This document shows positions 7,367-35,612 of a stretch of DNA of 64,000 nt, in pieces. This DNA comes from an uncultured Desulfobacter sp. Lineage in GTDB: Bacteria; Desulfobacterota; Desulfobacteria; Desulfobacterales; Desulfobacteraceae. The stretch's first letter is position 1, and each line of letters opens with the position of its first letter. The position numbers and the translations under genes are program-made. The notes under the pieces were generated by a model. It was not told the origin of the DNA. It did no database searches and saw only the letters and a list, made by a program, of their open reading frames with translations. The DNA lies in NCBI RefSeq assembly GCF_963665355.1, contig NZ_OY762229.1, forward strand, positions 930,001 to 994,000, read 5' to 3'.

Positions 7367-8364
7367 CTATTGCCCAACGCACGCCTGAACGCCGTTAAAT
7401 CTGCGGTCTTGCCCATGACAATCAGAGTGTCGCGGGGGTGGATAATGGTTTCAAAATGGGGGGCAAATTCCATGTGGCCGGACTTCTCTTTGATTGCAAT
7501 GATAATCAGATTGTAATTCTGCCGGATACCCGAATCTTTAAGTTGTTTTCCTACATAGTCCGATGTCTCCGGTACAAATGCCTCCTCAATCTGGATGGCA
7601 TCGCTTTGCCGGGACAGCGCTGTATCCAGAAAGTTGGAAACCGTGGGGCGCAGCAACTTTAAACCCATGGAAACCCCACCGATATCATAGGGGGATTCCA
7701 CCTGGTTGGCACCGGCCACATAGAATTTTTTTCTCACCATGGGGTTTGATGCCCGGGCCATAATATAGATGTCGGGATTGAGCTGTCTGGCAGTGAGCAC
7801 CAGGAACACATTTGCTGTATCTGTTGCAAGAACTGCCACTATGGCCCTGGCCCGTTTGATCCCGGCTTTTTCCAGCACATCCTCGTCTCCGGCATCTCCG
7901 ATGATATAGTGGATTTTATCCTGTTCCAGGGTCTCTTTGAGCTCCTCACTTTGTTCTACGACGACGAGGTCCTTGGTGTCTTCAGCCACGAATTTGCAAA
8001 GGACCCTTCCGATGCGGCCGTATCCGCAGACAATGTAATGGTTATTCAATTTTTTTATTTTGTTGTCCAAACGCTGTCTCCCCAGCATGCGTTTAATTTC
8101 ACCATCCACCACGGAACTGATGAAAACGCCGCCCATATAAAGAAAGTAGCCCACACCTGTAAATATCAGAAGAATGGTGAACAGCCGCCCACCGTCCGAC
8201 AGGTCGTGGACTTCCAGAAAACCCACCGTACTCAGGGTAATGGCCGTCATATAGGCGGAATCAAGGATGCCCCAGCCTTCAATGGCCATGTATCCGCCAG
8301 TGCCGAGTATAAAAAACAGAACTGCGACAAATACGGTGACCTTCATTTTTAACGTTTTATCCAT
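7363..8364 (-). CDS. two-TM ion channel with TrkA-N/RCK domain
   Basis: A 333-residue protein with TM1 at about 8-28, a pore region, TM2 at about 62-84, then a Rossmann NAD-binding TrkA-N domain (GYGRIG at 114-119) and a C-terminal TrkA-C-like domain. This is the MthK-like potassium channel plan. The selectivity filter, normally TVGYGD, reads TVGFLE (residues 46-51), so potassium selectivity is uncertain. It may be a regulated cation channel gated by nucleotide or ligand binding to the RCK domain. Monocistronic by position; its stop overlaps the convergent cyclo-ligase stop. Confidence 0.85.
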   Translation of the reverse strand: MDKTLKMKVTVFVAVLFFILGTGGYMAIEGWGILDSAYMTAITLSTVGFLEVHDLSDGGRLFTILLIFTGVGYFLYMGGVFISSVVDGEIKRMLGRQRLDNKIKKLNNHYIVCGYGRIGRVLCKFVAEDTKDLVVVEQSEELKETLEQDKIHYIIGDAGDEDVLEKAGIKRARAIVAVLATDTANVFLVLTARQLNPDIYIMARASNPMVRKKFYVAGANQVESPYDIGGVSMGLKLLRPTVSNFLDTALSRQSDAIQIEEAFVPETSDYVGKQLKDSGIRQNYNLIIIAIKEKSGHMEFAPHFETIIHPRDTLIVMGKTADLTAFRRALGNS

Positions 8365-10465: not shown

Positions 10466-11263
10466 ATGACCCCCGACGATTTTTTACAAATAGAAAAACA
10501 GTTTTATGCCTATACCATGCCCTTTGTTGACAGGGCCGAAGATCCCTACCCGTTTGTGCTCAAACAGGAGCACACGACCCGGGTCTGCAGGGCCATGGAA
10601 ATGCTTTGCGCATCCCTTGGTCTCGACGGCCCGACAACTGTCCGGGCCTGTGCTGCTGCCATGGTTCATGATATGGGCCGGTTTCCCCAGTTTGCTGTTT
10701 TTCATACCTATTCGGATGCCCGATCCAAAAATCATGCCGCCCTGAGCTGCCGGGAAATAGTGCGCAGCAACATTCTTTCCCGATTATCCGTTACAGACAG
10801 GCAGCTGATTTTACGGGCCGTGGCCCTGCATAACCGCCCCCGGCTTTCCTCAAATCTTGGGCGTGATTTAGATCTTCTGGCCCGCCTGCTCAGGGATGCC
10901 GACAAGATGGATATTTTTTATGTGATGAAAGACCATTATCTGAATCTGGAGTTAAGTCACAGCTTTATTACCCATGATCTGCACGATGACGGCAAAATAC
11001 CGGAAAAGGTTGCTCTATCCCTTCTTGAAACACGCCAAAATAGTTTAAGACATGTCAACACGCTCAATGGCATGAGGATCTTCCAGGCCGGGATGGTTTA
11101 TGATTTGAATTTTCCGGCTGCCGCCGCCGCCATACTGGAACTGGACGTTATTCCGGTTCTGCTGGGCGGCATCCCTTCTTCAGATCTGATTGCCCGGCTG
11201 GAGCAGGCGCTTTTGGCTCACCTGAGATCTCTTGCGGCATCCGGGACTCGGGCGTTTAGTTAA
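10466..11263 (+). CDS. HD-domain metal-dependent phosphohydrolase
   Basis: A 265-residue protein with an HD-superfamily metal site: His36, His68-Asp69 (MVHDMGRFPQF), further His at 90 and 122, and Asp144/Asp146 (RDADKMD). The substrate cannot be told from sequence. It follows the DUF368 gene after 55 bases on the same strand and may be co-transcribed. Its stop codon overlaps the convergent hslO stop by 8 bases. Confidence 0.75.
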   Translation: MTPDDFLQIEKQFYAYTMPFVDRAEDPYPFVLKQEHTTRVCRAMEMLCASLGLDGPTTVRACAAAMVHDMGRFPQFAVFHTYSDARSKNHAALSCREIVRSNILSRLSVTDRQLILRAVALHNRPRLSSNLGRDLDLLARLLRDADKMDIFYVMKDHYLNLELSHSFITHDLHDDGKIPEKVALSLLETRQNSLRHVNTLNGMRIFQAGMVYDLNFPAAAAAILELDVIPVLLGGIPSSDLIARLEQALLAHLRSLAASGTRAFS

Positions 11264-18331: not shown

Positions 18332-19072
18332 ATGGCCCAGGGCATTTTGTACGGCATCGGTGTGGGGCCCGGAGACCCGGATTTCATCACCTTGAAAGCC
18401 GTTAGAATTTTAAGCCAGGTGGATATTGTGTTTGCCGCCTCCTCTGCCAGAAACACTCACAGCCAGGCGGTGGAGATCGCCAAACCCCATTTAAAGGCCG
18501 GTGTGCCCATTCAAATGATTTCCTTTCCCATGATACGGGACAAGAAGGCCATGGAGGCAGCGTGGCAGGATAATGCCAGAACCGTCATCAAGGTACTGGA
18601 ACAAGGTAAGAATGCGGCTTTCATCACCCTTGGGGATTGTCTGACCTACTCCACCTACGGGTATGTGCTTAAACATATCCAGAAACTTGCCCCGCACATT
18701 GAAATCTGCTCCATCCCGGGCATCACTTCCTACCAGGCGGCCGCAGCCCGCATCAACACGCCTCTGGTGGAAGGAGAGGAATCCATGATGCTTGTATCCG
18801 GGGTCACGGGCGGGGACAAGTTCCGCAAGCTCAGTGACCGTGCAGACAATGTGGTTTTTCTTAAAGCGTATAGAAATGCCCATGACATCACAAAGGCCCT
18901 GGATGAGGCCGGAATGGCCGACAAGAGCGTGGGGATTGTCAGGTGCGGGCTTGAAGGCGAACAGATTATCAGCGATATGGATGTGTTTCAGAAGAAAAAA
19001 CCAGATTACTGGACCCTGATCATATCTAAGAAAAGCGGGCTTTGTGTCCAAGACAAGAAAGAAACAGAATAA
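18332..19072 (+). CDS. cbiL: cobalt-precorrin-2 C20-methyltransferase
   Basis: SAM-dependent methylation of cobalt-factor II at C20. The protein (246 residues from this start) begins GILYGIGVGPGDPDFITLKA, the glycine-rich N-terminus of the precorrin methylase family, and has GITSYQAAAARINTPL and LGDCLTYSTYGY later. The ATG at 18332 was chosen because AAAGGAGG precedes it and it falls right after the cbiC stop; an upstream in-frame TTG would only add an untypical tail. Bases 18404-18469 recur in the decayed duplicate at 25075-25140. Confidence 0.93.
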   Translation: MAQGILYGIGVGPGDPDFITLKAVRILSQVDIVFAASSARNTHSQAVEIAKPHLKAGVPIQMISFPMIRDKKAMEAAWQDNARTVIKVLEQGKNAAFITLGDCLTYSTYGYVLKHIQKLAPHIEICSIPGITSYQAAAARINTPLVEGEESMMLVSGVTGGDKFRKLSDRADNVVFLKAYRNAHDITKALDEAGMADKSVGIVRCGLEGEQIISDMDVFQKKKPDYWTLIISKKSGLCVQDKKETE

Positions 19073-20111
19073 CGCCCTGGCGCTTTTAGCCGGGCTTGTG
19101 ATCACAGTTTCCGTGATTGCCGCAGGGCTTGTCTGGGTGGATGGCGTTACCGCGGCAAAGCTGCCCAGGCGTCTGCTCTGGCCGCTTTCCCGGATGCTGG
19201 CCTATGTCGGCATCGGTCTTGTGGTGGCCCAGGCCATTGATGACACGGGCTGGACCCGCAAACTGGGAATTTTTGCGGCCCCGGTCTTCAGATTTGCCAA
19301 CCTGGGGCATCGGTGTTCCGCCGCATTCACCGCGGCCTTTTTTTCAGGGGTGTCGGCCAATGCCATGCTCCTGGATTTTTACAAGGAAAATCAGATTACC
19401 AGGCGGCAGCTTTTTTTGACCAACTTTATCAATCAGTTTCCGGCCTATTTTCTGCACCTTCCCACCACTTTTTTTATTGTGGTGCCCTTAACCCGTACGG
19501 CAGGACTGCTCTATTTCCTTTTAACCTTTCTGGCCACCTGTGTTCGCACATTTGCGTTTGTCCTGTTCGGACACTTTTTTGTGGGGGGCAAAGAGCCCCA
19601 AAAAATAGAGAGTGAAGATGCTTATGCCGGAAACACCCAGGGCGTTTCAAAAAAGAAAAGACCGCTGATGCACTCCATAAAGGAAAAACTTCCCGCCCGG
19701 TTTGCCAGGGTTGTGGCCTTTGTGATTCCGGTCTACACCGTGGTCTATGTACTGACCGCGGCAGGCGCCTTTGATGCCATTGAAACCTTTATGACCCGGT
19801 TTGCCGTCCAGAATTTTGTTCCGGCCCAGTCTTTGAGCGTCGTGGTTCTCAGTTTTGTCTCGGAGTTTACGGCAGGATTTGCCGCAGCCGGCGCCCTGAT
19901 GGATGCCGGCACCATCACCATGAAACAGACAGTGATTGCATTGCTTTTGGGCAACATCATCGCCTTTCCCATCCGGGCCATCCGTCATCAGCTTCCCCGG
20001 TACATGGGCATTTTTTCGCCGGGCATGGGCCTTTCCATGCTGCTCATGGGCCAGGCGTTCAGGGTGGCAAGCATTGTTTTTGTGGGATTGGTGTACTGGA
20101 TTGTCGGATAG
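19044..20111 (+). CDS. Gate (nucleoside-recognition) domain membrane protein of the cobalamin operon
   Basis: A 355-residue polytopic membrane protein starting with GTG inside the end of cbiL (29-base overlap). Hydrophobic helices occur at about 12-32, 43-63, 85-105 and through to the C-terminus; two repeated Gate-like modules can be seen (RLLWPLSRMLAYVGIGLVVAQ and the late FAAAGALMDAGTITMKQTVI). Similar proteins are found in B12-regulated operons of anaerobes, where cobalt or corrinoid transport has been suggested; no function is proven. Its last 62 bases recur intact in the decayed copy at 25133. Confidence 0.72.
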   Translation: MSKTRKKQNNALALLAGLVITVSVIAAGLVWVDGVTAAKLPRRLLWPLSRMLAYVGIGLVVAQAIDDTGWTRKLGIFAAPVFRFANLGHRCSAAFTAAFFSGVSANAMLLDFYKENQITRRQLFLTNFINQFPAYFLHLPTTFFIVVPLTRTAGLLYFLLTFLATCVRTFAFVLFGHFFVGGKEPQKIESEDAYAGNTQGVSKKKRPLMHSIKEKLPARFARVVAFVIPVYTVVYVLTAAGAFDAIETFMTRFAVQNFVPAQSLSVVVLSFVSEFTAGFAAAGALMDAGTITMKQTVIALLLGNIIAFPIRAIRHQLPRYMGIFSPGMGLSMLLMGQAFRVASIVFVGLVYWIVG

Positions 20112-21210
20112 AGAAAAAAAAACATTAAGAACAGGATTTACCACAGGCACGGCAGCTGCCGCCGCAGTCAAAGCCGCCCTTGTGTATCTGTTTACAAAAC
20201 AGATTCCCGGATCGGTAAACATAAATCTGCTCAACGGCCAGGTCATTGCGATTCCCGTTGATTCGGTATCCGTCCGCAATGGCCTGGTGCGGGCCGTTGT
20301 GGTCAAGGATGCAGGGGATGACCCGGATATTACACATCTGTCCAGAATAGGTGCTGTGGTGGAGCTGACTGCTGATTCCGGGGCTGTGCAGATCACCGGC
20401 GGCCAAGGCGTGGGCATGGTCACCAAACCCGGCCTTGAAATTTCGCCGGGGGAACCTGCTATCAATCCCGGCCCCCGGAAAATGATTCGTGAATCGGCCC
20501 TGCAGGTGCTCAGCCGTCATCACAGCCATGCCGGCGTGAGCGCTGAAATTTTTGTGGAAAACGGGGAGGCCCTGGCCGAAAAAACCCTGAACCGCCGGCT
20601 GGGCATAGAGGGTGGGTTGTCCATTCTGGGCACCACAGGACTTGTAAAGCCTTTGTCCCACCAGGCTTACATCTCCACCATCCGGTCCGCCATGTCCGTG
20701 GCCGGCGCCTGTGGATGCGATCATGTGGTCCTGACCACGGGCCGGCGCAGCGAGAGGTTTTCCCAGCAGATTTTTACCGATCTCAATGAAGAAGCTTTTA
20801 TTCAGATCGGCGATTTTTTCGGCATGTCCATGAAATGCCTTGGTGAGAATAAGATCCCCCATGCCACCCTGGCCGTATTTTTCGGCAAAGCCCTGAAAAT
20901 GGCCCAGGGCTTTGACCATACCCATGCCGCCAAGTCCGAGCTCACCATGGAGTGGCTTTCGGATGTGGTCCAGAATGTGACCCGGGATGAAAACCTGGCC
21001 CGGAAAGTCTTGGACGCCAACACGGCCCGGCACGCCTTTGGGATGGTCTGGCCTGCATACCCGGAAGTGCTGGAAAAGGTCGGCTGCGCCATGATTCGCT
21101 CCGCAGAAAAATTTTGTCCGGCACCATGCCGGTTCCGGACCATTATTTATGATTTTCAGGGGACCATTGCCTTTGATTCCCATAAGATCGAAGGAGATGA
21201 AACTGCATAA
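20101..21210 (+). CDS. cbiD: cobalt-precorrin-5B C1-methyltransferase
   Basis: Methylates C1 of the corrin macrocycle with SAM in the anaerobic pathway. The hallmark FTTGTAAAAAVKAAL lies near the N-terminus and GTTGLVKPLSHQAYISTI in the middle. The TTG at 20101 gives a 369-residue protein of normal length and an 11-base overlap with the preceding gene; longer in-frame starts would give a nonsense tail. It is the last gene of the operon and converges on a DUF4150 gene. A second, broken copy lies at 25184-26131. Confidence 0.92.
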   Translation: MSDREKKTLRTGFTTGTAAAAAVKAALVYLFTKQIPGSVNINLLNGQVIAIPVDSVSVRNGLVRAVVVKDAGDDPDITHLSRIGAVVELTADSGAVQITGGQGVGMVTKPGLEISPGEPAINPGPRKMIRESALQVLSRHHSHAGVSAEIFVENGEALAEKTLNRRLGIEGGLSILGTTGLVKPLSHQAYISTIRSAMSVAGACGCDHVVLTTGRRSERFSQQIFTDLNEEAFIQIGDFFGMSMKCLGENKIPHATLAVFFGKALKMAQGFDHTHAAKSELTMEWLSDVVQNVTRDENLARKVLDANTARHAFGMVWPAYPEVLEKVGCAMIRSAEKFCPAPCRFRTIIYDFQGTIAFDSHKIEGDETA

Positions 21211-21223
21211 TTTAATTTGCAGA

Positions 21224-21640
21224 TCAGAGACCGACGATAACTTTGGCCTGGCTGCAGCTCACCACAAGCCCTGAGGGCATATTGGCGTTTGAACCGTTGT
21301 GACTGGTGGGAGAAGTCAGGTGGATGCAGCCGTGTCCCTCAATGATCACCTTTGAGCTGCCCTTTTTAAACATAATTTTGTCCATGTTGGTCCCCGAGAC
21401 GACCCCACCGTTGACCCCGGCTTCGTCCCCCTGGCTTTTGGGGATTTCAGATTTTTCCGTGAGTACGGGTTTGCCTGCGAACAGTACCTTTTGGGAGGTC
21501 TTGCGTGCCTGGGCCGAATCCCCTGTGTTGGGAAAGGGGGTGGGGATGTCCGGGGCCGGAGGCGCCGGGACCCGGCAGACATCGGGAAAGCCGAAGCATT
21601 GCCCGCCGGCCTTGGTGAGCGCATTAAAAAACGCAGTCAT
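21224..21640 (-). CDS. DUF4150 PAAR-like tip protein, copy 1
   Basis: A 138-residue protein of the DUF4150 (PAAR-like) family, small spike-capping proteins associated with VgrG. Diagnostic are the N-terminal CFGFPDVCRVPAPPAPDIPTPFPN and GVVSGTNMDKIMFKKGSSKV, and the ending NMPSGLVVSCSQAKVIVGL. It is almost identical to copy 2 at 26145-26561, differing at residues 4 and 16 (Phe for Ile and Phe for Leu). Here it has lost its upstream partner: the adjoining DUF3540 gene is a short fragment cut by a transposase remnant, so the gene may lack its promoter. Confidence 0.85.
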   Translation of the reverse strand: MTAFFNALTKAGGQCFGFPDVCRVPAPPAPDIPTPFPNTGDSAQARKTSQKVLFAGKPVLTEKSEIPKSQGDEAGVNGGVVSGTNMDKIMFKKGSSKVIIEGHGCIHLTSPTSHNGSNANMPSGLVVSCSQAKVIVGL

Positions 21641-21666
21641 ATGATTGCTCCTTGTGATGAAACGAA

Positions 21667-21843
21667 TTATCCCAGATGGATCTTATCCCCTTTGATTTTT
21701 ACATCCTGTTCCGCTTTGACAAAAACTTTCCGGCTTTTGAAATGAAGGCTTTCTTCCACCAGGGTCCGTATCCGCCCGGCTGTTGTCTGGCAAAGGCCTC
21801 CACGGTCTGGTAAACATCTTTTACCTGCTGAACCATTTCCCGG
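21667..21843 (-). pseudogene. DUF3540 3' fragment
   Basis: These 177 bases match the 3' end of the intact DUF3540 gene (26588-26765) with about five substitutions and a 1-base deletion (GGCCTCC against GGCCCTCC) that shifts the frame. The match stops at CCATTTCCCGG, where an IS1380-type transposase fragment begins. It can encode only a broken C-terminus. Confidence 0.88.
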
Positions 21844-22278
21844 AGCCTGGTTTTGCTGGATGACCGAAACGTTGAAAATGTTCGCAGATTATCCAGATCC
21901 TTTGTGATCAGCGGTTTGCAGCGGGAACAAATTTCAAGGCGGACCATGGATTTTGATGGTTCAGTCCTTTCTACCAAAGGCCATGCCGAGGGCTCTGCTA
22001 TTGGATTCAATAAGGTCAAAAAAGGGGCTCGCAGTTATTATCCATTATTCTGTACCGTTGCCCAGACTGGGCGGTTTTTTGATATGCCCCATCGACCGGG
22101 GAATGTCCATGACTCCAATGGTGCTGCTGAATTTATGAAAGACTGCTTTTATCACATGCGCTCCCAAGTTCCGGGCTGCATCCTTGAGGCACGCATGGAC
22201 GGGGTTTTTTCTCAAGATAAGAACTTTTCCAACGATTTTTTAAAACGTTGGGGTATAGAATATGAGTTGTTTAAATAG
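21844..22278 (+). mobile_element. IS1380-type transposase fragment
   Basis: An open frame of about 144 codons encodes the middle of a DDE transposase of the IS1380 (DDE_Tnp_1 group 1) type: MDFDGSVLSTKGHAEG with the first acidic residue, GARSYYPLFCTVAQTG, PGNVHDSNGA and EARMDG. Both ends are missing: the left end is joined directly to the DUF3540 fragment and the right end stops early at TAG (22276-22278), well short of the usual 400-plus residues. No terminal inverted repeat was found. It is an inactive relic marking one boundary of the duplication. Confidence 0.78.
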
Positions 22279-22348
22279 ATATCTATAATAGAATGCCAGT
22301 GAGAGAATACGCTCTCGCCAAACAATATACGTCATCGGGAGGCGGCCA

Positions 22349-24979
22349 ATGAAAATAAAATATAATTCAGGGTTAACGGGTATCCTATATATGTTGATTT
22401 TGTTTTTGGTTTTTGGTTGCAGCAGTGACCATTCCAGCGATCATGACAATACCCCACCCAATATCATTTCAGCCACGCTTATCAATAACAGCCTCCCTGA
22501 AGTCAGTGCCTCGACAGAATCTTTTTGGGTGGGAAACCAATTGGGATTTCAATTGCATGGGGAAGATGCGGACGGGGATGCATGTAAGTTAATTACAACA
22601 ATGGCGTATTTCGAAAATGATAATTGGATTTCTTTAGATCCGGTGGCAGTGGATTTGGAATTGGAAGATCCGGTTGATTTTACCTATGCCCATGATGATT
22701 TTTATACAATTACAACACCTTCAGGTGAATGGCGCATTTCTTTTCAATTGGAGGATGCCAAAGGGAATAAGAGTGAAATTGTTGAAATGGTATTTTCTGT
22801 GGCAGAAAATTCTCCTCCGGTAAGTTCGTTTGAAAGGGTTTCAACAAATTATGGACAAGCGATCACTGTTGACTTGTCTGACTGTATCTCTGATCCGGAT
22901 GGCGACGCCTTGACTATCACAGAAGTTACGATAGAAAATATTGGGCTGGGTGTTAATAATGGCGATGGTACCATAACTGTCATACCGGTTGAAGGGTTTA
23001 TTGGTAGAATTATATGTTATTATATGGTTAGCGATGGGAAAGGTGGAATGGTAAGGGGGCAGTTATTGGTTGATGTTGAGACTCCGGAAAAAGATGCGTA
23101 TATCAAAATTTTTGATTTTAACAATACGGAAATGAACTACATCGCATCGTTAACCTTGCCGGAAGCGTCTGACGAGGGCTTTTGGAGCATGAACATCGAT
23201 AATTCATGGGCGGCTACGGATACCGTTACACTTTCCATGTCTGGGGTTTTGAAAGAAAATGGTGAAACGCCTGTTTTTCTGGCCTTTAGTGCAAGTGAAC
23301 CCGTAACCGTTGATGTTACGGTGTTTGATACCAATTTGAATATCGGTGGCCTAAACATGGAAGTTCTTCAACAATCGCCCACCGGTGAACGCGAAAACAT
23401 ATATGGCCCGGTTGCTGTCGTATCCGGAGGAAGTTATTCAGTGTCAATACCGGAGGAAGGATTTTACATTATAAATGTTTTTAGCTCTGAGGATTCGGAA
23501 AGAGGAGTGTGCCGAATAGATCTGACAGGTTCATCCCTGGTTAACGGCTTTATTGCAGGGGGATGGATCGATCATCGGGAGGAAAGTGGTCTGTTCTGTT
23601 ATGCCGTTCTGATGAGGGCATCCGATCGGTACTCATGGGGGAGTTGCAATATATCAGTTTTATTTGGCGAAAATTATGGAGAATGGGGTGCAGAATCTCC
23701 CGAACTCAAAGTCTATATGGATAACTCAGGAGAGTTGACACAGTACTGGCCTGATCCTATTGACTATATCGTTTCACCAGGAAGAACCACAAGAATATCC
23801 CTTAATGCGGATGGCAGTGAATCTGAAGGCAGTTCTATTTATTCTGGCATTGTGTGGCCTTGTGTAAGCGAGGATGGACGCTACGTGGTTTTTTCATCCG
23901 AAGCTTCGGACCTGGTTGATAATGATCTAAACGATAGCTCTGATATCTTTTTATATGACCAGGATACCGGACAAATTGAACGGATTTCGGAAAACGCTTC
24001 CGGTGAAGAAGGGGATGAGGATTCGGAGAAGCCCCAAATAAGCGCTGATGGCCAGTATGTGGCGTATCAATCCTTTGCTAAAAACCTCATCGAATATGAT
24101 GGTAATCGAACAACCCATGTTTTCCTTTATTCTGTAAAGACCGGTGAAACTACTTTGGTATCCGCTGATGAATCGGGAAATGCCGGGGACGACATGAGTT
24201 ATATGCCTGCGATATCCGGTTCCGGACATTTTGTCGCCTATAAATCCTATGCAAACAATCTGGTAGACGGAAAGACGGCAGGAGTGTTCATGTATGATTG
24301 GGAAACGAAGAAAACGAGTTACTTAACCGGCGGGTATTCTGTCGATAATATTTCGATAGGCGGGAATGGCAGTTATGTGGCCTATGTTACCCGTGAGGAT
24401 GTTGTTTCGGATGATACGAACAATTTCTATCAGGATATTTATGTGTATGATAGAAATACCGGAGAAAATCGGTTGGTGTCGGCAGATAGCTCCGGTATTG
24501 TGGGTATTTATGGAGGAGATTCTCCTGCAATTTCGGAGGACGGCAGGTATGTTGTTTTTGAATCCTCATCGACCAATTTGATTGATAATGACACAAATCA
24601 CGTGAGCGATATTTTCCTTCATGATTTAACGACAGGTGAAACCATCCGTGTATCTGTCGGCAGTTCGGGGGAGGAATTGTTGTCGGGCTCCCGGAGACCT
24701 TCTATTTCTGCTGACGGCAGATACATTTCATTTGTTTATCAAAGTGTAGACGGCAGCCAGCAAATTTTCGTAAAAGACCGGACAACCGGTGAGTTGAAAC
24801 TGGTCACGGTTAATATCTATGGAAAAATTTCGGAAAATGAGAGTCTTTATAGCTGGATATATCAGTCTATAAGCGGCAGCGGGGAATTCATTGTGTTTTC
24901 CTCCGCTGCAGGAGATCTTGTCCAGAATGACACAAACGGGCGTGAGGATGTCTTCATCCATTCGTTGGTTGACGATTAA
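22349..24979 (+). CDS. large lipoprotein with cadherin-like and TolB/PD40-like repeats
   Basis: An 876-residue protein with a lipoprotein signal (MLILFLVFGC, Cys24). Residues about 35-240 contain Ig/cadherin-like beta modules (DPDGDALTITEV, ISDPDGD), about 245-460 an unassigned beta-rich part, and about 470-870 repeated blocks of the form ISEDGRYVVFSSEASDLV / DIFLYDxxTGxxxxVS, typical of TolB-like beta-propellers (PD40). It has a good ribosome-binding site (GGGAGGCGG). Base composition is visibly more AT-rich than its neighbours. It is flanked by the two duplication copies and an IS fragment, so it is likely acquired cargo. Role unknown; a surface or periplasmic binding protein is the safest description. 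Confidence 0.8.
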   Translation: MKIKYNSGLTGILYMLILFLVFGCSSDHSSDHDNTPPNIISATLINNSLPEVSASTESFWVGNQLGFQLHGEDADGDACKLITTMAYFENDNWISLDPVAVDLELEDPVDFTYAHDDFYTITTPSGEWRISFQLEDAKGNKSEIVEMVFSVAENSPPVSSFERVSTNYGQAITVDLSDCISDPDGDALTITEVTIENIGLGVNNGDGTITVIPVEGFIGRIICYYMVSDGKGGMVRGQLLVDVETPEKDAYIKIFDFNNTEMNYIASLTLPEASDEGFWSMNIDNSWAATDTVTLSMSGVLKENGETPVFLAFSASEPVTVDVTVFDTNLNIGGLNMEVLQQSPTGERENIYGPVAVVSGGSYSVSIPEEGFYIINVFSSEDSERGVCRIDLTGSSLVNGFIAGGWIDHREESGLFCYAVLMRASDRYSWGSCNISVLFGENYGEWGAESPELKVYMDNSGELTQYWPDPIDYIVSPGRTTRISLNADGSESEGSSIYSGIVWPCVSEDGRYVVFSSEASDLVDNDLNDSSDIFLYDQDTGQIERISENASGEEGDEDSEKPQISADGQYVAYQSFAKNLIEYDGNRTTHVFLYSVKTGETTLVSADESGNAGDDMSYMPAISGSGHFVAYKSYANNLVDGKTAGVFMYDWETKKTSYLTGGYSVDNISIGGNGSYVAYVTREDVVSDDTNNFYQDIYVYDRNTGENRLVSADSSGIVGIYGGDSPAISEDGRYVVFESSSTNLIDNDTNHVSDIFLHDLTTGETIRVSVGSSGEELLSGSRRPSISADGRYISFVYQSVDGSQQIFVKDRTTGELKLVTVNIYGKISENESLYSWIYQSISGSGEFIVFSSAAGDLVQNDTNGREDVFIHSLVDD

Positions 24980-25074
24980 AATTGTATGGATGTAAAATAT
25001 CGAGAGAGGGGATCAAGAAAATAATTGTTATATTCATGCTTATAAGTTGTTTTGGGAGTGTGGCAATTAGTGAA
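24980..25074 (+). other. probable truncated 5' end of a secreted-protein gene
   Basis: Just after the lipoprotein stop, a GAGAGGGG motif is followed by codons for KKIIVIFMLISCFGSVAIS, which reads like a signal peptide. At 25075 the duplicated cbiL sequence takes over. It may be the front of a gene cut by the duplication; no clear start codon was found. Confidence 0.35.
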
Positions 25075-25194
25075 AGAATTTTAAGCCAGGTGGATATTGT
25101 GTTTGCCGCCTCCTCTGCCAGAAACACACACCGCCAGGCGTTCAGGGTGGCAAGCATTGTTTTTGTGGGATTGGTGTACTGGATTGTCGGATAG
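25075..25194 (+). pseudogene. cbiL-Gate-protein fusion remnant
   Basis: Bases 25075-25140 match cbiL (18404-18469) and 25133-25194 match the end of the Gate membrane protein gene (20050-20111). The join is at the shared octamer GCCAGGCG and is in frame, so it reads ILSQVDIVFAASSARNTHRQ then AFRVASIVFVGLVYWIVG. Both parents are truncated; no function is expected. Confidence 0.85.
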
Positions 25195-26131
25195 AGAAAA
25201 AAAACATTACGAACAGGATTTACCACAGGCACGGCAGCTGCGGCTGCAGTCAAAGCCGCCCTTGTGTATCTGTTTACAAAACAGATTCCTAAATCGGTAA
25301 ACATCAATCTGCTCCGCCGGCACCACAGCAATGCCGGAGTGAGTGCTGAAATTTTTGTGGAAAACGGGGAGGCCCTGGCCGAAAAAACCCTGAACCGCCG
25401 GCTGGGCATAGAAGGCGGCTTGTCCATTCTGGGGACCACAGGGCTTGTAAAACCGTTGTCCCACCAGGCGTACATCTCCACCATCCGGTTCGCCATGTCC
25501 GTGGCCGGCGCCTGTGGATGCGATCATGTGGTTCTGACCACGGGCAGGCGCAGCGAGAGGTTTTCCCAGCAGATTTTTACCGATCTCAATGAAGAAGCCT
25601 TTATACAAATCGGCGATTTTTTCGGTATGTCCATGAAATGCCTTGCCGAAAATAAAATCCCCCATGCCACCCTGGCCGTGTTTTTCGGCAAAGCATTGAA
25701 AATGGCCCAGGGCTTTGCCCATACCCATGCCGCCAAGTCCGAGCTCACCATGGAGTGGCTTTCGGATGTGGTTAGAGACGTGGGCACTGGGCTCGTATCA
25801 TTCTGCGTAGCAGAAAATCCACAAGATATCGTGGGTTTTCAATTTTAAAAAGCACAACTTATGGTGTTCTGGAATAGTACGAGCCCAGTACCGAGACGTG
25901 ACCTGGGATGAAAACCTGGCCCGGAAGGTCTTGGACGCCAACACGGCCCGGCATGCCTTTGGGATGGTCTGGCCTGCATACCCGGAAGTGCTGGAAAAGG
26001 TCGGCTGCGCCATGATTCGCTCCGCAGAAAAATTTTGTCCGGCACCATGCCGGTTCCGGACCATTATTTATGATTTTCAGGGGACCATTGCCTTTGATTC
26101 CCATAAGATCGAAGGAGATGAAACTGCATAA
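25184..26131 (+). pseudogene. cbiD: broken second copy of cbiD
   Basis: Relative to the intact gene it has (1) eight instead of nine A residues after GAG near the start, shifting frame; (2) an in-frame 279-base (93-codon) deletion joined at TGCTC; (3) a 110-base element inserted at 25783 that brings a stop codon. The long middle part keeps a clean frame (to 25848) and the last 233 bases match cbiD almost perfectly. Not expected to give active enzyme. Confidence 0.92.
25775..25900. mobile_element. MITE-like element with 8-bp target duplication
   Basis: A 110-base non-coding insert (25783-25892) bounded by direct repeats GAGACGTG (25775-25782 and 25893-25900). Its ends are inverted repeats: left GGCACTGGGCTCGTA, right TACGAGCCCAGTACC, matching in 14 of 15 positions. 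Comparison with copy 1 shows the uninterrupted sequence with a single target. Inside are small stems (TCTGC-GTA-GCAGA; GAAAATCCAC with GTGGGTTTTC). It has no transposase and would be moved in trans. The parent IS family was not identified. Confidence 0.9.
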
Positions 26132-26144
26132 TTTAATTTGCAGA

Positions 26145-26561
26145 TCAGAGACCGACGATAACTTTGGCCTGGCTGCAGCTCACCACAAGCCCTGAGGGCA
26201 TATTGGCGTTTGAACCGTTGTGACTGGTGGGAGAAGTCAGGTGGATGCAGCCGTGTCCCTCAATGATCACCTTTGAGCTGCCCTTTTTAAACATAATTTT
26301 GTCCATGTTGGTCCCCGAGACGACCCCACCGTTGACCCCGGCTTCGTCCCCCTGGCTTTTGGGGATTTCAGATTTTTCCGTGAGTACGGGTTTGCCTGCG
26401 AACAGTACCTTTTGGGAGGTCTTGCGTGCCTGGGCCGAATCCCCTGTGTTGGGAAAGGGGGTGGGGATGTCCGGGGCCGGAGGCGCCGGGACCCGGCAGA
26501 CATCGGGAAAGCCGAGGCATTGCCCGCCGGCCTTGGTGAGCGCATTAAAAATCGCGGTCAT
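26145..26561 (-). CDS. DUF4150 PAAR-like tip protein, copy 2
   Basis: 138 residues, the island's own PAAR-like spike cap, with the same family phrases as copy 1 (DVCRVPAPPAPDIPTPFPN, SGTNMDKIMFKKG). It is the last gene of the leftward vgrG operon, 26 bases downstream of DUF3540. In related clusters the next gene is often the effector, but here the decayed cbiD copy follows on the other strand, so no cargo gene is seen at this position. Confidence 0.87.
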   Translation of the reverse strand: MTAIFNALTKAGGQCLGFPDVCRVPAPPAPDIPTPFPNTGDSAQARKTSQKVLFAGKPVLTEKSEIPKSQGDEAGVNGGVVSGTNMDKIMFKKGSSKVIIEGHGCIHLTSPTSHNGSNANMPSGLVVSCSQAKVIVGL

Positions 26562-26587
26562 ACGATTGCTCCTTGTGATGAAACGAA

Positions 26588-27490
26588 TTATCCCAGATGG
26601 ATCTTATCCCCTTTGATTTTTACATCCTGTTCCGCCTTGACAAAAATTTTCCGGCTTTTGAAATGGAGGCTTTCTTCCACCATGGTCCGTATCCGCCCGG
26701 CTGTTGTCTGGCAAAGGCCCTCCACGGTCTGGTAAACATCTTTTACCTGCTGCACCATTTCCCGGGCAATGGTTTCCATCTTGTCTGCTGAAAGCCTTAT
26801 ATCCTGTGCAGTGAAATCCAGCCAGTTGCCTTTGACACATGCCTTTTCCATATTCAGATGTCCTGACCGGGCACGGATGTCCACCTGGTCCGACTCCGCC
26901 GCCATCACGCCCGGCTTCAGCTCTATAGAAGACCTGTTCGTTTTTTCATCCGGACCGCTCACCGAAAGGGATAACCCCTCCTGACTGCTCAGGGCCAGGG
27001 GGCCGCCGGAAACAAACCGGAATCCCTCTGCGGCAAAAAAATCCATCCGGCCCCGGTCAGCGCTGAATGCCATGTCCCCCGAAGGCAGGTTCACCCGGCA
27101 CTTGCCGCTGGCATCGTCATACTCAAAAACCAGGCCCCCGGTTTGGGAATAAAGCTTCAGTCCGGTGGCATTGCCCACAACATCGGCCCTGGCCCCGCTC
27201 TCGAACCGGATGATTTTATCTGTTTTCTGTCGCCTGCCCAACGCATCCAGAATTCCCACGATATAAAGGATTTCATCCTCCCCCCGGGCCACCAGCACCC
27301 GTTGGCCGGGCCAAAGATCCTGTCCGCCCCCGGAAAGGGCAGGCACGGCGGAAAAGGTTTCAGTTGCTTTCGTACCGGACCCAAGCGCCACCAGCACCTG
27401 GCCGGTTTCGTCATCGATGTTGGCGATCAAAGCCGGTTTCAAATAAAAGGGAGCCCCGGTATCTTCAGGGGATTTTAATGCATGGATCAT
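26588..27490 (-). CDS. DUF3540 spike-associated protein
   Basis: About 300 residues. The N-terminal third has a small OB/beta-barrel look (ALIANIDDETGQVLVAL, WPGQRVLVARGEDEILYIVGIL); the rest has regular beta-strand repeats ending KIFVKAEQDVKIKGDKIHLG, like the beta-helical tips of gp5/VgrG-type proteins. DUF3540 genes are regularly found between vgrG/DUF2169 and DUF4150 genes. The ATG at 27490 with AAGGA upstream is preferred; an in-frame TTG at 27526 overlapping the previous gene would add 12 residues. Its 3' 177 bases occur again at 21667. Confidence 0.82.
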   Translation of the reverse strand: MIHALKSPEDTGAPFYLKPALIANIDDETGQVLVALGSGTKATETFSAVPALSGGGQDLWPGQRVLVARGEDEILYIVGILDALGRRQKTDKIIRFESGARADVVGNATGLKLYSQTGGLVFEYDDASGKCRVNLPSGDMAFSADRGRMDFFAAEGFRFVSGGPLALSSQEGLSLSVSGPDEKTNRSSIELKPGVMAAESDQVDIRARSGHLNMEKACVKGNWLDFTAQDIRLSADKMETIAREMVQQVKDVYQTVEGLCQTTAGRIRTMVEESLHFKSRKIFVKAEQDVKIKGDKIHLG

Positions 27491-27518
27491 GGTTTTTTTT
27501 ATCCTTAAATTGACGTCA

Positions 27519-30005
27519 TCATTCAATGTCTTTCAGCCAGTCTTTAAGAGAGGTGCCTGGTTTGGGCAGGGTGTAATCCTCGGCCCGGGCCAGATCCTCA
27601 TCCGTGTACCGGACATCTGTCAGCAAAGCCCCATCCATCAGGGTTCGATGATCCTTAATACGGTGAAGCCTGGCCTGGAGCAGATTGGCCCTCCTGAAAT
27701 CCGCACAGCTGAGATCGGCATGGGAAAAATCCGAAAAAGAGAGAACCGCTTTTTGAAACAAGGCGTTCGGGCACCGGGCATGGTTGAATTCGGCCCTTTC
27801 CAGTAAAGCGTTTGAGAAATCAGCCGAATCCGCCTCGGCTTTGTCAAGGCGGGCTGATGTCAGCATTGCCCCCTTCAGGTCGGCCCCGGATAACCTGGAA
27901 CCGGAAAAATCAACGGATTTGCCCTGGGCTCCTTTAAGATCTGCCTTGGAAAGATCGGCACCTGAAAAATTCACCTGGTGTAGCTTTGAAAACGAAAGAT
28001 CCGCGCCCTTGAGATTGGCAAGGCTCAGATCTGAATCGGAGAAATCGCACCCTTTAAGATCTGTCCCGGCAAAACAGCATGATTTCAGGCCGCAGAGGAT
28101 AAAGGCCGTGCCAACAATCTTGACCGTGGAGAAATCATTGCCCTGGAGGTCGCTTTGATTGAGCCGGGCTTTTTCAAAATCCGATCCTTCCAGCCGGCAC
28201 TGGCCAAGATCGCAGTAATCCAGCACGGCGCCCCGAAAAACGGCCCCGCCAAGGTCTGCCCCGGCAAGGGTGGTGTCCTTGAGAACAGCCATGGAAAAAT
28301 CAGCTTTGGCAAGGCAGGCATTGGAAAAATCCATATCTTCCAGGGTGCAGCCCGCAAAATTCACCCCGGCCAGCATAGCTCCGCTTAAATCTGCCCCGGA
28401 AAAGGCGTGCCCATTAAGATCAAGTCCGGTAAGGTCACAGTGATGAAACCGGACTGTCTTGAGCAGGGTGTTTGTCAGGTGAGCATTTTTAAGGACCGTG
28501 TCCCTGAATTCCACCCGGCTGAGATCGGCTGCAATGAGATTGGCAGAACCAAGGTCCACCCCCATGAAAAGAGCACCGGCCATCCGGGTGGATGAGAAAT
28601 CGGCGCCCTGAAGTCCGGCCGATGTAAACCGGGCACGGGTGAGCCGGGCACCGGCAAAGCAGGTCTGGCCCAGGTCGGAATGGGACATGCAGACATCTTC
28701 AAGGTTGCCCTGGTCAAAACGGGCCTCCCGGGCCTTTGACCCCGTGATGGTAGCGGCGGTGAGATCGGCGTTGTGAAACATGGCCTTGTCCATGCTGGTG
28801 TCGGATATGGAACAGGCAGCCAAGATCGTTTGTGTAAAATTGCAGGCGCCAAGATTGCACCCTGAAAAAAAGGCCTGGCTGAAAACCGCGCCTTGAAATG
28901 AGGCTGCTTCGGCCATGACCCCGGTAAAACGGGCGCTATCCATGACAGCGGATGAAAAATCCCCATGCCCGATATCGCAGTTTTCAAAAATTGAACGGGA
29001 AAGATCGCTTTTTTGGAATCCGGCATTTTTCAGGTTCACCCCGGAGAATCGAATCCCTTGGAGATCCTGTCCGGAAAAATCCCGATCCCCGAGGTCGGCT
29101 TCGGCGATCACGCACCCGGCCAGGTCGGACGGGAAATTGACCACTGCTTTTAAGTCCACATCAAAGAAGCGGGTCCTTGCCACTCCGGCTTCGGCAAAAT
29201 CGGTCCGGTCCAAGGTGCAGTGGGTAAATCCGGCATCCCGGATATCCGCATTTTTAAACACCGCCCCGGAAAGATCTGTGTGAAAAAATCCGGTATTGAG
29301 AATCCGGGTCTGGTCCAGTCGGGACCCGGCCATGCGGCACTCTTTGAAAACCGCACGGGTCAGATCCGCATGGGAAAACCCGGAATTCCGGAGCCCCACA
29401 GACTCAAACCGGGCCTGAACCATATGGGAGAATGAAAAATCAGCACCGTCAAAGCAACTTTTTCCGGGTTGAAAATCCTCATCCGAGAGCCCCAGGTCCC
29501 CCAGGTCAATATCCATCTCCAATGGATTTTTTTCTGACAGGTCGGTCTGCATCAGATCCAGGGCTTTTTTTGACAGGGTCATCTGCTCCGGGGCCTTTGT
29601 GAGGGTCAAGGATGTGGTGACGGAGAAAGAGGTCAGCACAGCATTCCTGAAGACAGCGCCCCGGGCGGTGGTGTTCTCCATGACGGCTTCCGACAAGTCA
29701 CAACCCGGGAATAGGGCGCCATCCAGATCCACGCCACAAAATTTTGTCCCGGACAGGTCCGCTCCGGTGAAATCAGCGCCTTTTAAACAGGTATTCAGGA
29801 TCATGGCCTCGGACAGGTCTATTCCGGAAAAATTCATCCCTGGAAGGTCAAGTCCCATGAAAATGACACCGGCAAAGGATTCCTTCTGTCGTGCCTTTTG
29901 CCGGACCGTTTCTTCTTCCAGCATCCGGGAGCCAAAATTGCGGAAGGCTGAGGAAAGCTCACTGAAGTTCATGTTTTTAAAATCAAAGGTATCTTTATCA
30001 GCCAT
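27519..30005 (-). CDS. giant pentapeptide-repeat protein of the VgrG island
   Basis: 828 residues made almost wholly of pentapeptide repeats (A[D/N]LXX-type, for example FSGADLSGAMLAGVNFAGC), from about residue 45 to 790. A non-repeat stretch at about 120-180 (KAPEQMTLSKKALDLMQTDL) breaks the series, and the last 35 residues (WLKDIE end) are different. Such repeats fold as a right-handed four-sided beta-helix, roughly 20 residues per turn. The ATG has AAAAGGAG upstream and lies 6 bases after the DUF2169 gene. Function not known; in this setting it may be a structural rod, a loading adaptor or cargo. Confidence 0.88.
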   Translation of the reverse strand: MADKDTFDFKNMNFSELSSAFRNFGSRMLEEETVRQKARQKESFAGVIFMGLDLPGMNFSGIDLSEAMILNTCLKGADFTGADLSGTKFCGVDLDGALFPGCDLSEAVMENTTARGAVFRNAVLTSFSVTTSLTLTKAPEQMTLSKKALDLMQTDLSEKNPLEMDIDLGDLGLSDEDFQPGKSCFDGADFSFSHMVQARFESVGLRNSGFSHADLTRAVFKECRMAGSRLDQTRILNTGFFHTDLSGAVFKNADIRDAGFTHCTLDRTDFAEAGVARTRFFDVDLKAVVNFPSDLAGCVIAEADLGDRDFSGQDLQGIRFSGVNLKNAGFQKSDLSRSIFENCDIGHGDFSSAVMDSARFTGVMAEAASFQGAVFSQAFFSGCNLGACNFTQTILAACSISDTSMDKAMFHNADLTAATITGSKAREARFDQGNLEDVCMSHSDLGQTCFAGARLTRARFTSAGLQGADFSSTRMAGALFMGVDLGSANLIAADLSRVEFRDTVLKNAHLTNTLLKTVRFHHCDLTGLDLNGHAFSGADLSGAMLAGVNFAGCTLEDMDFSNACLAKADFSMAVLKDTTLAGADLGGAVFRGAVLDYCDLGQCRLEGSDFEKARLNQSDLQGNDFSTVKIVGTAFILCGLKSCCFAGTDLKGCDFSDSDLSLANLKGADLSFSKLHQVNFSGADLSKADLKGAQGKSVDFSGSRLSGADLKGAMLTSARLDKAEADSADFSNALLERAEFNHARCPNALFQKAVLSFSDFSHADLSCADFRRANLLQARLHRIKDHRTLMDGALLTDVRYTDEDLARAEDYTLPKPGTSLKDWLKDIE

Positions 30006-30011
30006 GGCGGA

Positions 30012-32372
30012 TCAACTCCTTTTCCCGGCAGCCAGCTTGGTCATGGTCAGGTCGGCTCCGGCCACCAGGGTGTTTTTAAACCGGGAATTGAGGAACTCCA
30101 CCCCATAAAGACAGGCCCCCCGCAAATCAGTACCGTCCAGGTTGGCCCCCTTCAGGCTCCCCTGAAATAGGTTCGCCCGGACAAGGCAGGCCCGGGTAAG
30201 GATGGCCTTGGCGAACCGGGCGAATTTCAGGTTGGAAGCGCCAAGGTTGGCCTTTTCCAAATCCGCGCCCTTAAAATTTGCCCCCTCAAAGGTTGAGAAT
30301 GAAAAGTCCGTATGTTTCAGGACCGCCTGGCGGAAAATTGCCTCGGCCCCGGTGCTTTCCTGAAACCGGCTGTGGGAGAAATCCGAATCGGCGGCCCTGG
30401 CTCCGGTGAGATCCGCCTTTGAAAAATCCGCATGGGTGCAGCGCACCCTTTCAAGGCGGGCTTCCCTGAGAATGGCTCCGGAAAAACGGGCCTGGTCCAT
30501 GACCGCTTCTGAAAAATCCGCGCCGCTGGCATCAGCCCCGGAAAAATCTGCCCCTGTGAGCGTTGCCGTCACAAAAAGGGTATCCCGGGCCTGACAGTCC
30601 CTGAGATCCGCGCCGGTCATGACGGCTTTTTCAAAAACGGCGTCATCCAGCCTTGCCCGGCGGAGTACAGCCCCGTGAAATATGGCGTTGGCAAAATCAA
30701 GGCCCGAAAGATCCAGTCCCGAGAGGTCAAGCCCCGTAAAATTTTCTGATTGAAAAGACTCCCTGGCTGCGGCCCGTTCTTCAACCCGCCTTCGGGTCAG
30801 ATTCGGCTCGGCTGACTCGCCGGACTCCAGGGGTGCCGCCGCCGGAGTCGCAACCTCAGGATGTGGTGATTCCACCGGGGCTGGAGCGATAGGATCCGCC
30901 TGATCCCGGAAAAGGGACAATGCTTGGGCCTGAAGGATCAGAGGTTCCAGATTTTCAGGATCCAGGCCCCTTTTAGGAAAGGCGGCTGCCATGATGCCCT
31001 GGAACTCCTGAAAGGATGGATCCCGGCCAAGGGTGTCGATCTCATCCGCCCCCAAGCCCATGGCTCTAAGAAGCCGGACCTGCTCGGCCCGGGCTTTGGG
31101 TGAAGGTGCAGGGATATGGTCCGGGCCGAAGCCCAGGTCATCCAAGGCACTGCGCTTCAGGATTTCGACATTTTCAAGATTTCCAGCCGTAATTTTTTCC
31201 GGATCGGTTTTCAGGAGCTGATTCACAAGGGCCTTCTGGCGGGATTGGACTTCCTGTCTGGTAACAGGGTCAAGACCGTCAAGCAAAGGATCCAGCCCGG
31301 CCAGAAAAGCCGCCACTTCATCATTTTGCTTTTCTGCGGTATCTTCGACAGCGTCCTCTGCCCAATCCGCCACCGTGCCCGCGCTCCCCGGACTGGAGGG
31401 AACAGGCCCCGATGGCCATGTTTCCTGGGGTAAAGGGACTGTTTTATCAGGCCCGGGAGGCAAAGGCCCAGGTTCCCATTTCCGGTTTTCCCGGTCCAGG
31501 GCCTCGATGAATTTTTCCCGGTAATGGTCCAGGGGCAGCGCCTTTGTTTCCAGGGGTTCAGACAGAATGTAAAGATAATCAATCTCTTCATGGTCCGCAG
31601 ATCCCGTTGTGGTCCATCCCCGCCAGACCAGAATCAGGATCTTTGAATCCGTATTGGCCCACAGGGTATCCAGATTCATGGCAACTTCCGCGAACAAGGG
31701 GCCTTCCGGTCTTTTGCAATCTGGTTTTTTGCAATCTGATTGCTGAACAAAACACCTGACCCGGATGCCGGGCAAAGAAGATTTGAATTCCGGAAGATCC
31801 CGATCCAGATGGCGGAAATATAGGTGCTCATCGCCCTTGAGCCCGCCCTGGACTTGCTGGTCCGGCCAGGCCTGGTTGAAATGGGCAAAATCAAAATCTT
31901 CGGGGAACCAGGGCCACCGGTCCACCTGCCACCGGCCATCAAAGCGGCCCATCCGGCCAAGCCGCTGGGGGCTGTGAACAGGGATGGGACCGAATATTCT
32001 GCCGGACCCGGGAATGCCGGAACATGTCCCCGGAACCATCAGGGTCTTGATGCGGTTCCCGACCCCAAAGGCCACGTCAAAGCTCTTTTCCGGCCGGCTC
32101 TGCAGGTGCCAGCAGGTGCCTGCCAGCAGGAAATCTGCTGCAGGCTTAAAGTACGTGAAATCAGATCCGTAATAGAGCGCCCCGGTTCCGCCCGGATCAT
32201 CGGGATAATAGGTATCTCCGGCAGGCCGGAGCTGGTCGGACGAAAGGACGCAACTTTTGCCTGGTGCCAGCACATAGGTGGCCTTAACCGCCAAGGTTAA
32301 GGAATGGCCGGGAAAGGGAATCCGGCCCGGAATCGGGGCAATGGTGAACGGGGTGTCGTTAATAATTTCCAA
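30012..32372 (-). CDS. DUF2169 adaptor fused to pentapeptide repeats
   Basis: About 786 residues. Residues 1-300 form a DUF2169 domain (LEIINDTPFTIAPIPGR, then PGHSLTLAVKATYVL and WPWFPEDFDFAHFNQAWPDQ), a family linked to loading of type VI effectors onto VgrG. A Pro/Ala-rich linker and a helical part follow, then pentapeptide repeats over the last 230 residues (SGLDLSGLDFANAIFHG). The TTG at 32372, nine bases after AAAAGGA, is preferred because the domain begins there; the longest open frame starts at an ATG at 32447 inside vgrG. It lies between vgrG and the larger pentapeptide gene. Confidence 0.82.
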   Translation of the reverse strand: MEIINDTPFTIAPIPGRIPFPGHSLTLAVKATYVLAPGKSCVLSSDQLRPAGDTYYPDDPGGTGALYYGSDFTYFKPAADFLLAGTCWHLQSRPEKSFDVAFGVGNRIKTLMVPGTCSGIPGSGRIFGPIPVHSPQRLGRMGRFDGRWQVDRWPWFPEDFDFAHFNQAWPDQQVQGGLKGDEHLYFRHLDRDLPEFKSSLPGIRVRCFVQQSDCKKPDCKRPEGPLFAEVAMNLDTLWANTDSKILILVWRGWTTTGSADHEEIDYLYILSEPLETKALPLDHYREKFIEALDRENRKWEPGPLPPGPDKTVPLPQETWPSGPVPSSPGSAGTVADWAEDAVEDTAEKQNDEVAAFLAGLDPLLDGLDPVTRQEVQSRQKALVNQLLKTDPEKITAGNLENVEILKRSALDDLGFGPDHIPAPSPKARAEQVRLLRAMGLGADEIDTLGRDPSFQEFQGIMAAAFPKRGLDPENLEPLILQAQALSLFRDQADPIAPAPVESPHPEVATPAAAPLESGESAEPNLTRRRVEERAAARESFQSENFTGLDLSGLDLSGLDFANAIFHGAVLRRARLDDAVFEKAVMTGADLRDCQARDTLFVTATLTGADFSGADASGADFSEAVMDQARFSGAILREARLERVRCTHADFSKADLTGARAADSDFSHSRFQESTGAEAIFRQAVLKHTDFSFSTFEGANFKGADLEKANLGASNLKFARFAKAILTRACLVRANLFQGSLKGANLDGTDLRGACLYGVEFLNSRFKNTLVAGADLTMTKLAAGKRS

Positions 32373-32400
32373 TTGGATCAGTCCTTTTCTGACACAGTTC

Positions 32401-35298: not shown

Positions 35299-35612
35299 TT
35301 CTTTCCCCCATTTTCTTAAACGCGCTGTTTTACGGGTTGCATTTGCCTGTTTGTGCTTTTTTAATCTGTTCCAGTGAGATGTAATTCAACAGAAGCTGGA
35401 AAAAATCTTGATCTTCATATGATTACTGGTTGTATTCGCTTGAATATGCCGAGTCAAGGGGCGAGATCATCATTTTTGTTGTTATTTTTATCAAAAAGTT
35501 CCAATAACTTGTTTGACTACTTTTCGTCTTTTGTTGTGGGTTGCACCCGGGTGTTGACAGCCCGGACCAGCCCATGGCTGTTCTTGAACATCAACATGAC
35601 TAAGGAGGTACC
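35299..35612. other. intergenic region between vgrG and the SPFH genes
   Basis: 314 bases between divergent transcription units. Its only recognisable content is one copy of the 55-base dispersed repeat (35530-35584) and the AAGGAGG ribosome-binding site of the next gene at about 35602. A 96-codon open frame across it is not supported. Confidence 0.6.
35530..35584 (+). repeat. 55-bp dispersed intergenic repeat, copy A
   Basis: Shares the consensus TTTGTTG-GGG-TG--CC-GGGTGTTGA-AG-CC-G--C-GCCCATGGC-GTTC with 38037-38091 and 57411-57465 (about 76% identity to the third). It lies 28 bases upstream of the SPFH gene start. Confidence 0.7.

Follow-up and report, generated by a model that had tools for sequence, protein, structure and literature searches.

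Two diverged alleles in a partly decayed direct repeat of cbi genes in an uncultured Desulfobacter

Structure of the repeat

The locus described here lies in an uncultured Desulfobacter sp., in a stretch of 64,000 nucleotides (positions 930,001 to 994,000 of NZ_OY762229.1; hereafter the window) within a 5.54-Mb contig of a 5.64-Mb genome in three contigs. It is a direct repeat in which cobalamin synthesis genes (cbiL and cbiD, with a Gate-like gene) and genes of a VgrG accessory cluster (DUF4150, DUF3540) stand in two collinear copies, one intact and the other interrupted: copy 1 at 18404-21843 and copy 2 at 25075-26765 (Table 1). These intervals had been proposed as direct repeats in an earlier note on the window, and they are recovered both by self-BLAST of the window, as four matching blocks, and by global alignment. 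The left end of the repeat, at 18404, falls inside cbiL. To the left of copy 1 the cbi operon is intact; copy 2 begins mid-cbiL, the gene being cut at codon 25, and to its right the VgrG cluster is intact. The start codon of copy-1 cbiD at 20125 is putative, the enclosing open reading frame (ORF) covering 19936-21210. The two DUF4150 proteins differ by two amino acids. The DUF3540 fragment of copy 1 has lost one base relative to copy 2, and the 5′ part of the gene is missing from copy 1 past its right junction.

Table 1. Features of the repeat and its surroundings, in coordinates of the window
Feature	Position	Strand	Evidence
cbiL, precorrin-2/cobalt-factor II C20-methyltransferase, intact	18332..19072	+	TIGR01467 216 bits (cut-off 163)
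Gate-like membrane protein gene, intact, copy 1	19044..20111	+	PF07670 24 bits (under cut-off 29.6)
cbiD, cobalt-precorrin-5B methyltransferase, intact, copy 1	20125..21210	+	TIGR00312 393 bits (cut-off 200); PF01888
PAAR-like DUF4150 gene, intact ORF, copy 1	21224..21640	-	PF13665 116.7 bits
DUF3540 3′ fragment, copy 1	21667..21843	-	alignment, codon comparison, PF12059 fragment match
IS1380-family remnant: transposase gene interior, internal deletion, 3′ end	21835..22258	+	90% match to element in relative G013
Gene of an 876-aa product	22349..24979	+	Ig/cadherin-like domain, PD40 repeat; lipoprotein-like N-terminus (by eye)
Copy 2: cbiL and Gate remnants, broken cbiD, intact DUF4150, 3′ part of DUF3540	25075..26765	+	self-BLAST, alignment
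GCCAGGCG, junction of 1588-bp deletion	25133..25140	+	alignment
TGCTC, junction of 279-bp in-frame deletion	25310..25314	+	alignment, frame check
IS1-type miniature inverted-repeat transposable element (MITE), 110 bp, in copy-2 cbiD	25783..25892	+	terminal inverted repeats GGCACTGGGCTCGTA / GGTACTGGGCTCGTA; GAGACGTG on either side
PAAR-like DUF4150 gene, intact ORF, copy 2	26145..26561	-	PF13665 116.6 bits
DUF3540 gene, intact, extending from copy 2 into unique sequence	26588..27526	-	PF12059 82.2 bits
Rest of VgrG accessory cluster: pentapeptide protein, DUF2169-pentapeptide protein, VgrG	27519..35298	-	profile matches

The global alignment resolves the repeat into the blocks 18404-18460/25075-25131, 20049-20113/25132-25196 and 20115-20227/25197-25309 on the left and 20507-20969/25310-25772, 20970-21796/25891-26717 and 21797-21843/26719-26765 on the right. 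The five events by which the earlier note had explained the whole length difference hold in this alignment and add up as it had stated (3440-1588-279-1+118+1 = 1691), as do the microhomologies of 8 and 5 bases at the two large deletions. The first, GCCAGGCG, is found at 18462 and 20050 in copy 1 (offset 1588) and once in copy 2, at 25133; the second, TGCTC, occurs at eight places in copy 1, including 20228 and 20507 (offset 279), and at 25310 and 26567 in copy 2. With breakpoint pairs drawn at random on copy 1, microhomology of at least 5 bases arises by chance in about 0.7% of draws and of at least 8 bases in about 0.03%. Through these two deletions copy 2 is without most of cbiL, the Gate gene and 93 codons of cbiD. 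The 118-bp gain, ascribed in the earlier note to a transposition, is indeed one and is made up of the 110-bp MITE, with terminal inverted repeats of 15 bp, and an 8-bp target duplication, the flanking GAGACGTG. The three remaining pieces of copy-2 cbiD are free of internal stop codons when read separately, and the 279-bp deletion preserves the frame; the decay of this gene therefore looks young. At 25036-25195 the junctions have also made a reading frame of 52 codons, probably by chance; it starts in the spacer, takes in cbiL codons and enters the end of Gate.

The two copies are separated by about 3.2 kb, composed of an IS1380 remnant and the gene of an 876-aa product; this spacer was absent from the earlier account, and any account of the locus must cover it. 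The relative G013 carries an element of the same kind that encodes a 458-aa transposase (NF033539, 234 bits, cut-off 180), and the truncated remnant of the window still reaches 66 bits with the same profile. The last nine bases of copy 1 (21835-21843, ATTTCCCGG) belong equally to the IS1380-type transposase sequence. Since ATTTCCCGG is common to copy 1, copy 2 and the G013 insertion sequence at this point, the right boundary of copy 1 is a 9-base microhomology junction between DUF3540 and an IS1380 transposase gene. An IS1380 element ending exactly at copy 1 was ruled out, the transposase gene being cut internally there. The remnant's own internal deletion, near 22215-22220, shows by eye an apparent short microhomology of about 4 bases.

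The 876-aa gene has a GC content of 42-44%, against 51-59% in the other kilobases of 16-32 kb. No close relative of it was found in 86 genomes of the family, 11 of which, its own included, gave matches; the non-self matches are partial, with 27-43% identity among the matches listed. Among plasmids, 24 records matched, all partially and distantly, at less than 60% identity.

Substitutions between the copies

The earlier note was silent on the most informative part of the comparison, the 54 substitutions that separate copy 1 from copy 2 over 1572 aligned bases. In cbiD, 39 codons differ, of which 30 (77%) synonymously and 9 nonsynonymously, where the neutral expectation for these codons is 71-76% nonsynonymous (kappa 4 to 1; P = 8e-12 to 1e-9). 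Over 208 codons the nonsynonymous divergence (dN) is 0.021 and the synonymous divergence (dS) 0.257, a dN/dS of about 0.08. For comparison with relatives, 19 genomes of the genus were searched, including the genome studied; 17 match the copy-1 region, the best-matching relatives at 80-84% identity, and the corresponding stretches of 12 relatives were fetched, ten of which have cbiD in place. Either cbiD copy differs from these ten by a dS of 0.50-0.93. In a cbiD tree the two copies group together, split from the ten relatives with a bootstrap of 100, and the branch of the intact copy 1 (0.042) is longer than that of the broken copy 2 (0.035).

Changes were assigned to a copy with the same ten relatives as outgroup, when one base was found in at least 70% of them and the other in at most 20%. 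Fourteen changes fall on copy 1 (12 synonymous, 2 nonsynonymous) and 13 on copy 2, and 16 sites were assigned to neither. A first count of the copy-2 changes gave 8 synonymous and 5 nonsynonymous; when the third base of codon 20842 is taken as silent, they become 9 and 4. With 4 of 13 nonsynonymous, the copy-2 branch still departs from the neutral 71-76% (P = 0.0008-0.0033). Because the cbiD changes are 77% synonymous by codon and symmetric, with the longer branch on the intact copy, most of the divergence appears to have arisen while both cbiD alleles worked, and the deletions and the MITE would have come late. Nonsynonymous sites are somewhat more numerous on the broken copy than on the intact one, and a late relaxed phase of the former is therefore likely. 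What the earlier note called a decayed duplicate thus holds in so far as two deletions took most of cbiL, Gate and part of cbiD from copy 2 and a transposition was added to it; as a decayed twin of copy 1 it is not supported, given the silent and symmetric changes of cbiD.

The divergence is moreover mosaic. The copies differ at 2/135 aligned bases in 18404-20127, at 43/627 (6.9%) in 20128-21033, at 0/561 in 21034-21594 and at 9/249 (3.6%) in 21595-21843. The identical run of 561 bases exceeds those of all 20000 permutations, the maximum of which was 422. The relatives are no more conserved in the identical stretches, where they diverge by 24% (18404-18460), 17.5% (20049-20127) and 17% (21034-21180, the portion of the 561-base run that is comparable with them), than in the diverged tract of the copies (17-21%). 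It follows from this and from the 561-base run that recombination exchanged or homogenised parts of the repeat.

Surroundings of the repeat

The Gate gene is matched at the DNA level along its span in all 12 fetched relatives. What follows it varies. In five of them (G001, G005, G015, G016, G018) the match leaps from the end of cbiD to 35.6 kb of the window, the contig of G005 ending soon after; five others (G002, G003, G007, G013, G014) have different sequence after cbiD, with one 134-bp match to 36.2 kb of the window farther along in G003; and in two (G012, G017) the match ends at Gate. At the DNA level, none of the 12 has DUF4150/DUF3540 after cbiD, and in none was a match to the VgrG cluster found beside cbiD/Gate. 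Relatives of DUF3540, 32-50% identical, occur in 4/86 family genomes including the one studied, which is alone in having it among the 19 of the genus; they are too distant as outgroups to polarise 21595-21843. Since the 12 relatives are without DUF4150/DUF3540 at this place and DUF3540 is confined to this genome within the genus, the VgrG cluster is most simply a lineage-specific insertion. Joining the left of copy 1 to the right of copy 2 gives the simplest reading of the order that this lineage had before the duplication. The ancestral order cbiL-Gate-cbiD-DUF4150-DUF3540 of the earlier note can accordingly be kept for what preceded the duplication in this lineage and not beyond it.

The region after cbiD looks like a recurrent place of insertion in the genus. 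In G001 the cbiD 3′ end is independently present as a direct repeat (L029, reverse complement, 7473-7568 and 10600-10695; 85.7% over 98 columns); its two copies enclose a 3-kb stretch with three reading frames, and the second lies where a 450-aa reading frame begins. Another repeat, intergenic and about 100 bp long, lies at the right edge of the VgrG cluster (35486-35589); diverged copies of it are numerous, in at least 15 of the 19 genus genomes. A second DUF3540 gene is present elsewhere in the genome studied, at G000:C2:5166000-5178000 (L189), as a 216-aa frame with 171.6 bits, and about 7 kb from it there is a 128-bp match to the VgrG gene of the window.

Accessory clusters of VgrG in type VI secretion systems group DUF4150 PAAR-like, DUF3540, DUF2169, pentapeptide and VgrG proteins, and all of these families stand in one cluster here. 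Unlike in the 12 fetched relatives, this cluster adjoins cbiD.

The MITE in copy 2 belongs to a family of eight full copies, the other seven in the same contig, and one partial copy. An exact 8-bp flanking duplication was detected by script for this one alone of the eight; the copy at 3461230 has a 9-bp duplication by eye, and the other six have none. By BLAST, the MITE ends align to the two termini of a 1143-bp element (L177:1501-2643), with 90% identity over 20-21 bases, while a stricter pattern for the right end had no match. The 343-aa product of the element is a predicted IS1-related transposase, and a divergent IS1 relative, since it scores 45.7 bits with the NCBIfam IS1 profile (cut-off 100) and has no Pfam match. 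The length of 110 bp, the inverted repeats of 15 bp, the target duplications of 8 bp (script) or 9 bp (by eye) and the ends matching an IS1-like element are those of IS1-family MITEs, from which the family departs by a parental transposase under the curated cut-off and by the six of eight full copies without target duplication.

Discussion

We read the locus as a direct repeat of two diverged alleles, joined by an additive insertion between lineages beside the resident allele and accompanied by gene conversion, and would put the probability of this reading at roughly one half. The substitutions show purifying selection on both cbiD alleles while they drew about 7% apart. The divergence being silent and symmetric, the simplest account is that it built up between working genes housed in different cells, and most likely in two separate lineages. 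An additive insertion would then have set the IS1380 remnant, the 876-aa gene and the second allele beside the resident one, one end of it being the 9-base microhomology junction. The route may have been single-crossover integration of a circle; alternatively, linear DNA may have been inserted with homology as its anchor and joined illegitimately at the other end. The 561-bp identical tract would mark the place of the crossover or else a gene conversion by which the copies were later homogenised. Copy 2, now redundant, went on to lose most of cbiL, Gate and the 93 cbiD codons and took the IS1-type MITE. An additive insertion with a microhomology junction explains repeat, spacer and junction together, and the GC content of the inserted 876-aa gene (42-44%) also counts for this history. 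More tentatively, with odds somewhat below even, the inserted DNA may have been chromosomal DNA of an unsampled sister Desulfobacter lineage, naturally acquired, and the locus a merodiploid caught in decay towards a single copy, with its junction and conversion tract still readable.

Several points weigh against this reading. No genome of a donor lineage for either cbiD copy was found among the relatives; the two copies are about equally far from all ten relatives with cbiD, so that neither can be assigned to a source, and, as they group together, only a close lineage outside the sample could be the donor. At the first count, 5/13 copy-2 sites were nonsynonymous against 2/14 on copy 1, and selection on copy 2 may have been somewhat relaxed. 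In the leftmost 135 aligned bases there are 2 differences against the 9 that a rate of 6.9% predicts (P = 0.004, post hoc), and one integration with one conversion tract is therefore insufficient: a second conversion or import is needed. Finally, the same synonymous pattern would be expected if a single genome had long retained two working copies.

This last point is the core of the best-surviving alternative, an old tandem duplication in place in which both cbiD genes worked until a dS of about 0.26, two stretches were converted and copy 2 decayed recently. It requires no donor, it agrees with the closeness of the two copies, which stand apart from all ten relatives (bootstrap 100), and conversion, an ordinary process between direct repeats, would account for the 561 identical bases as well as for the near identity at the left end. 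We nevertheless hold it to be possible rather than probable, because it demands purifying selection on two redundant cbiD genes over a dS of 0.26, where species of the genus are separated by 0.50-0.93, and because copy 2 would have lacked the upstream operon from the start, its cbiL being cut at codon 25.

Slightly more doubtful is a recent tandem duplication in which cbiD (20128-21033) of one copy was afterwards replaced by the allele of a related strain through homologous recombination, the repeat itself being young. The 6.9% tract is flanked by near identity (2/135 on the left, 0/561 on the right) in parts where, as far as they are comparable, relatives differ by 17-24%, and a single import would account for the silent divergence without long co-existence of two copies. 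The 3.6% stretch at 21595-21843, with its 9 differences, requires in addition a second import or a fast decay of the copy-1 fragment.

That copy 2 is a duplicate of copy 1 which simply decayed, as the earlier note supposed, is very improbable: every length event is confirmed, yet such decay predicts changes that are mostly nonsynonymous, concentrated on copy 2 and even along it, and cbiD shows none of the three. Least of all do we believe in an assembly error, which is unlikely given the 54 sites and the MITE that set the copies apart; if a mixed culture had been assembled chimaerically, with two strains merged in one contig, two diverged alleles could stand side by side, and the contamination estimate of the genome is 2.94%, but the spacer, the microhomology junction and a MITE family with seven further full copies in the same 5.54-Mb contig speak so strongly against it that next to no weight is left for it.

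Tandem duplication followed by pseudogenisation of one copy is a textbook process, and the locus resembles it in its direct repeats, its redundancy, its microhomology deletions and the small transposon in the redundant copy. It differs in that the divergence is silent, symmetric and mosaic, and mostly older than the decay. Campbell-type integration is the single-crossover integration of a circle. Both it and homology-facilitated illegitimate recombination (HFIR) would also give an additive insertion with short microhomology at one junction. According to PMC6382021, HFIR with segments of 3 to 10 bp was documented for S. pneumoniae, A. baylyi and P. stutzeri during transformation. Unlike those systems, the locus has no known donor or sign of competence, and its homology anchor and polarity are putative; the collections searched contained no conspecific genome to supply a donor or an intermediate.

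All the processes involved are of known kinds, and the locus is ordinary in kind. Each gene of the repeat keeps an intact reading frame, and what is known of cobalamin synthesis and type VI secretion is unchanged. For a broken repeat of this sort, length differences alone are inadequate for dating or explaining it, and here it is the substitutions that reveal the broken copy to have undergone most of its divergence as a working gene. If the origin between lineages is true, the locus would be a chromosomal transfer between close sulfate reducers, caught before the redundant allele was lost.

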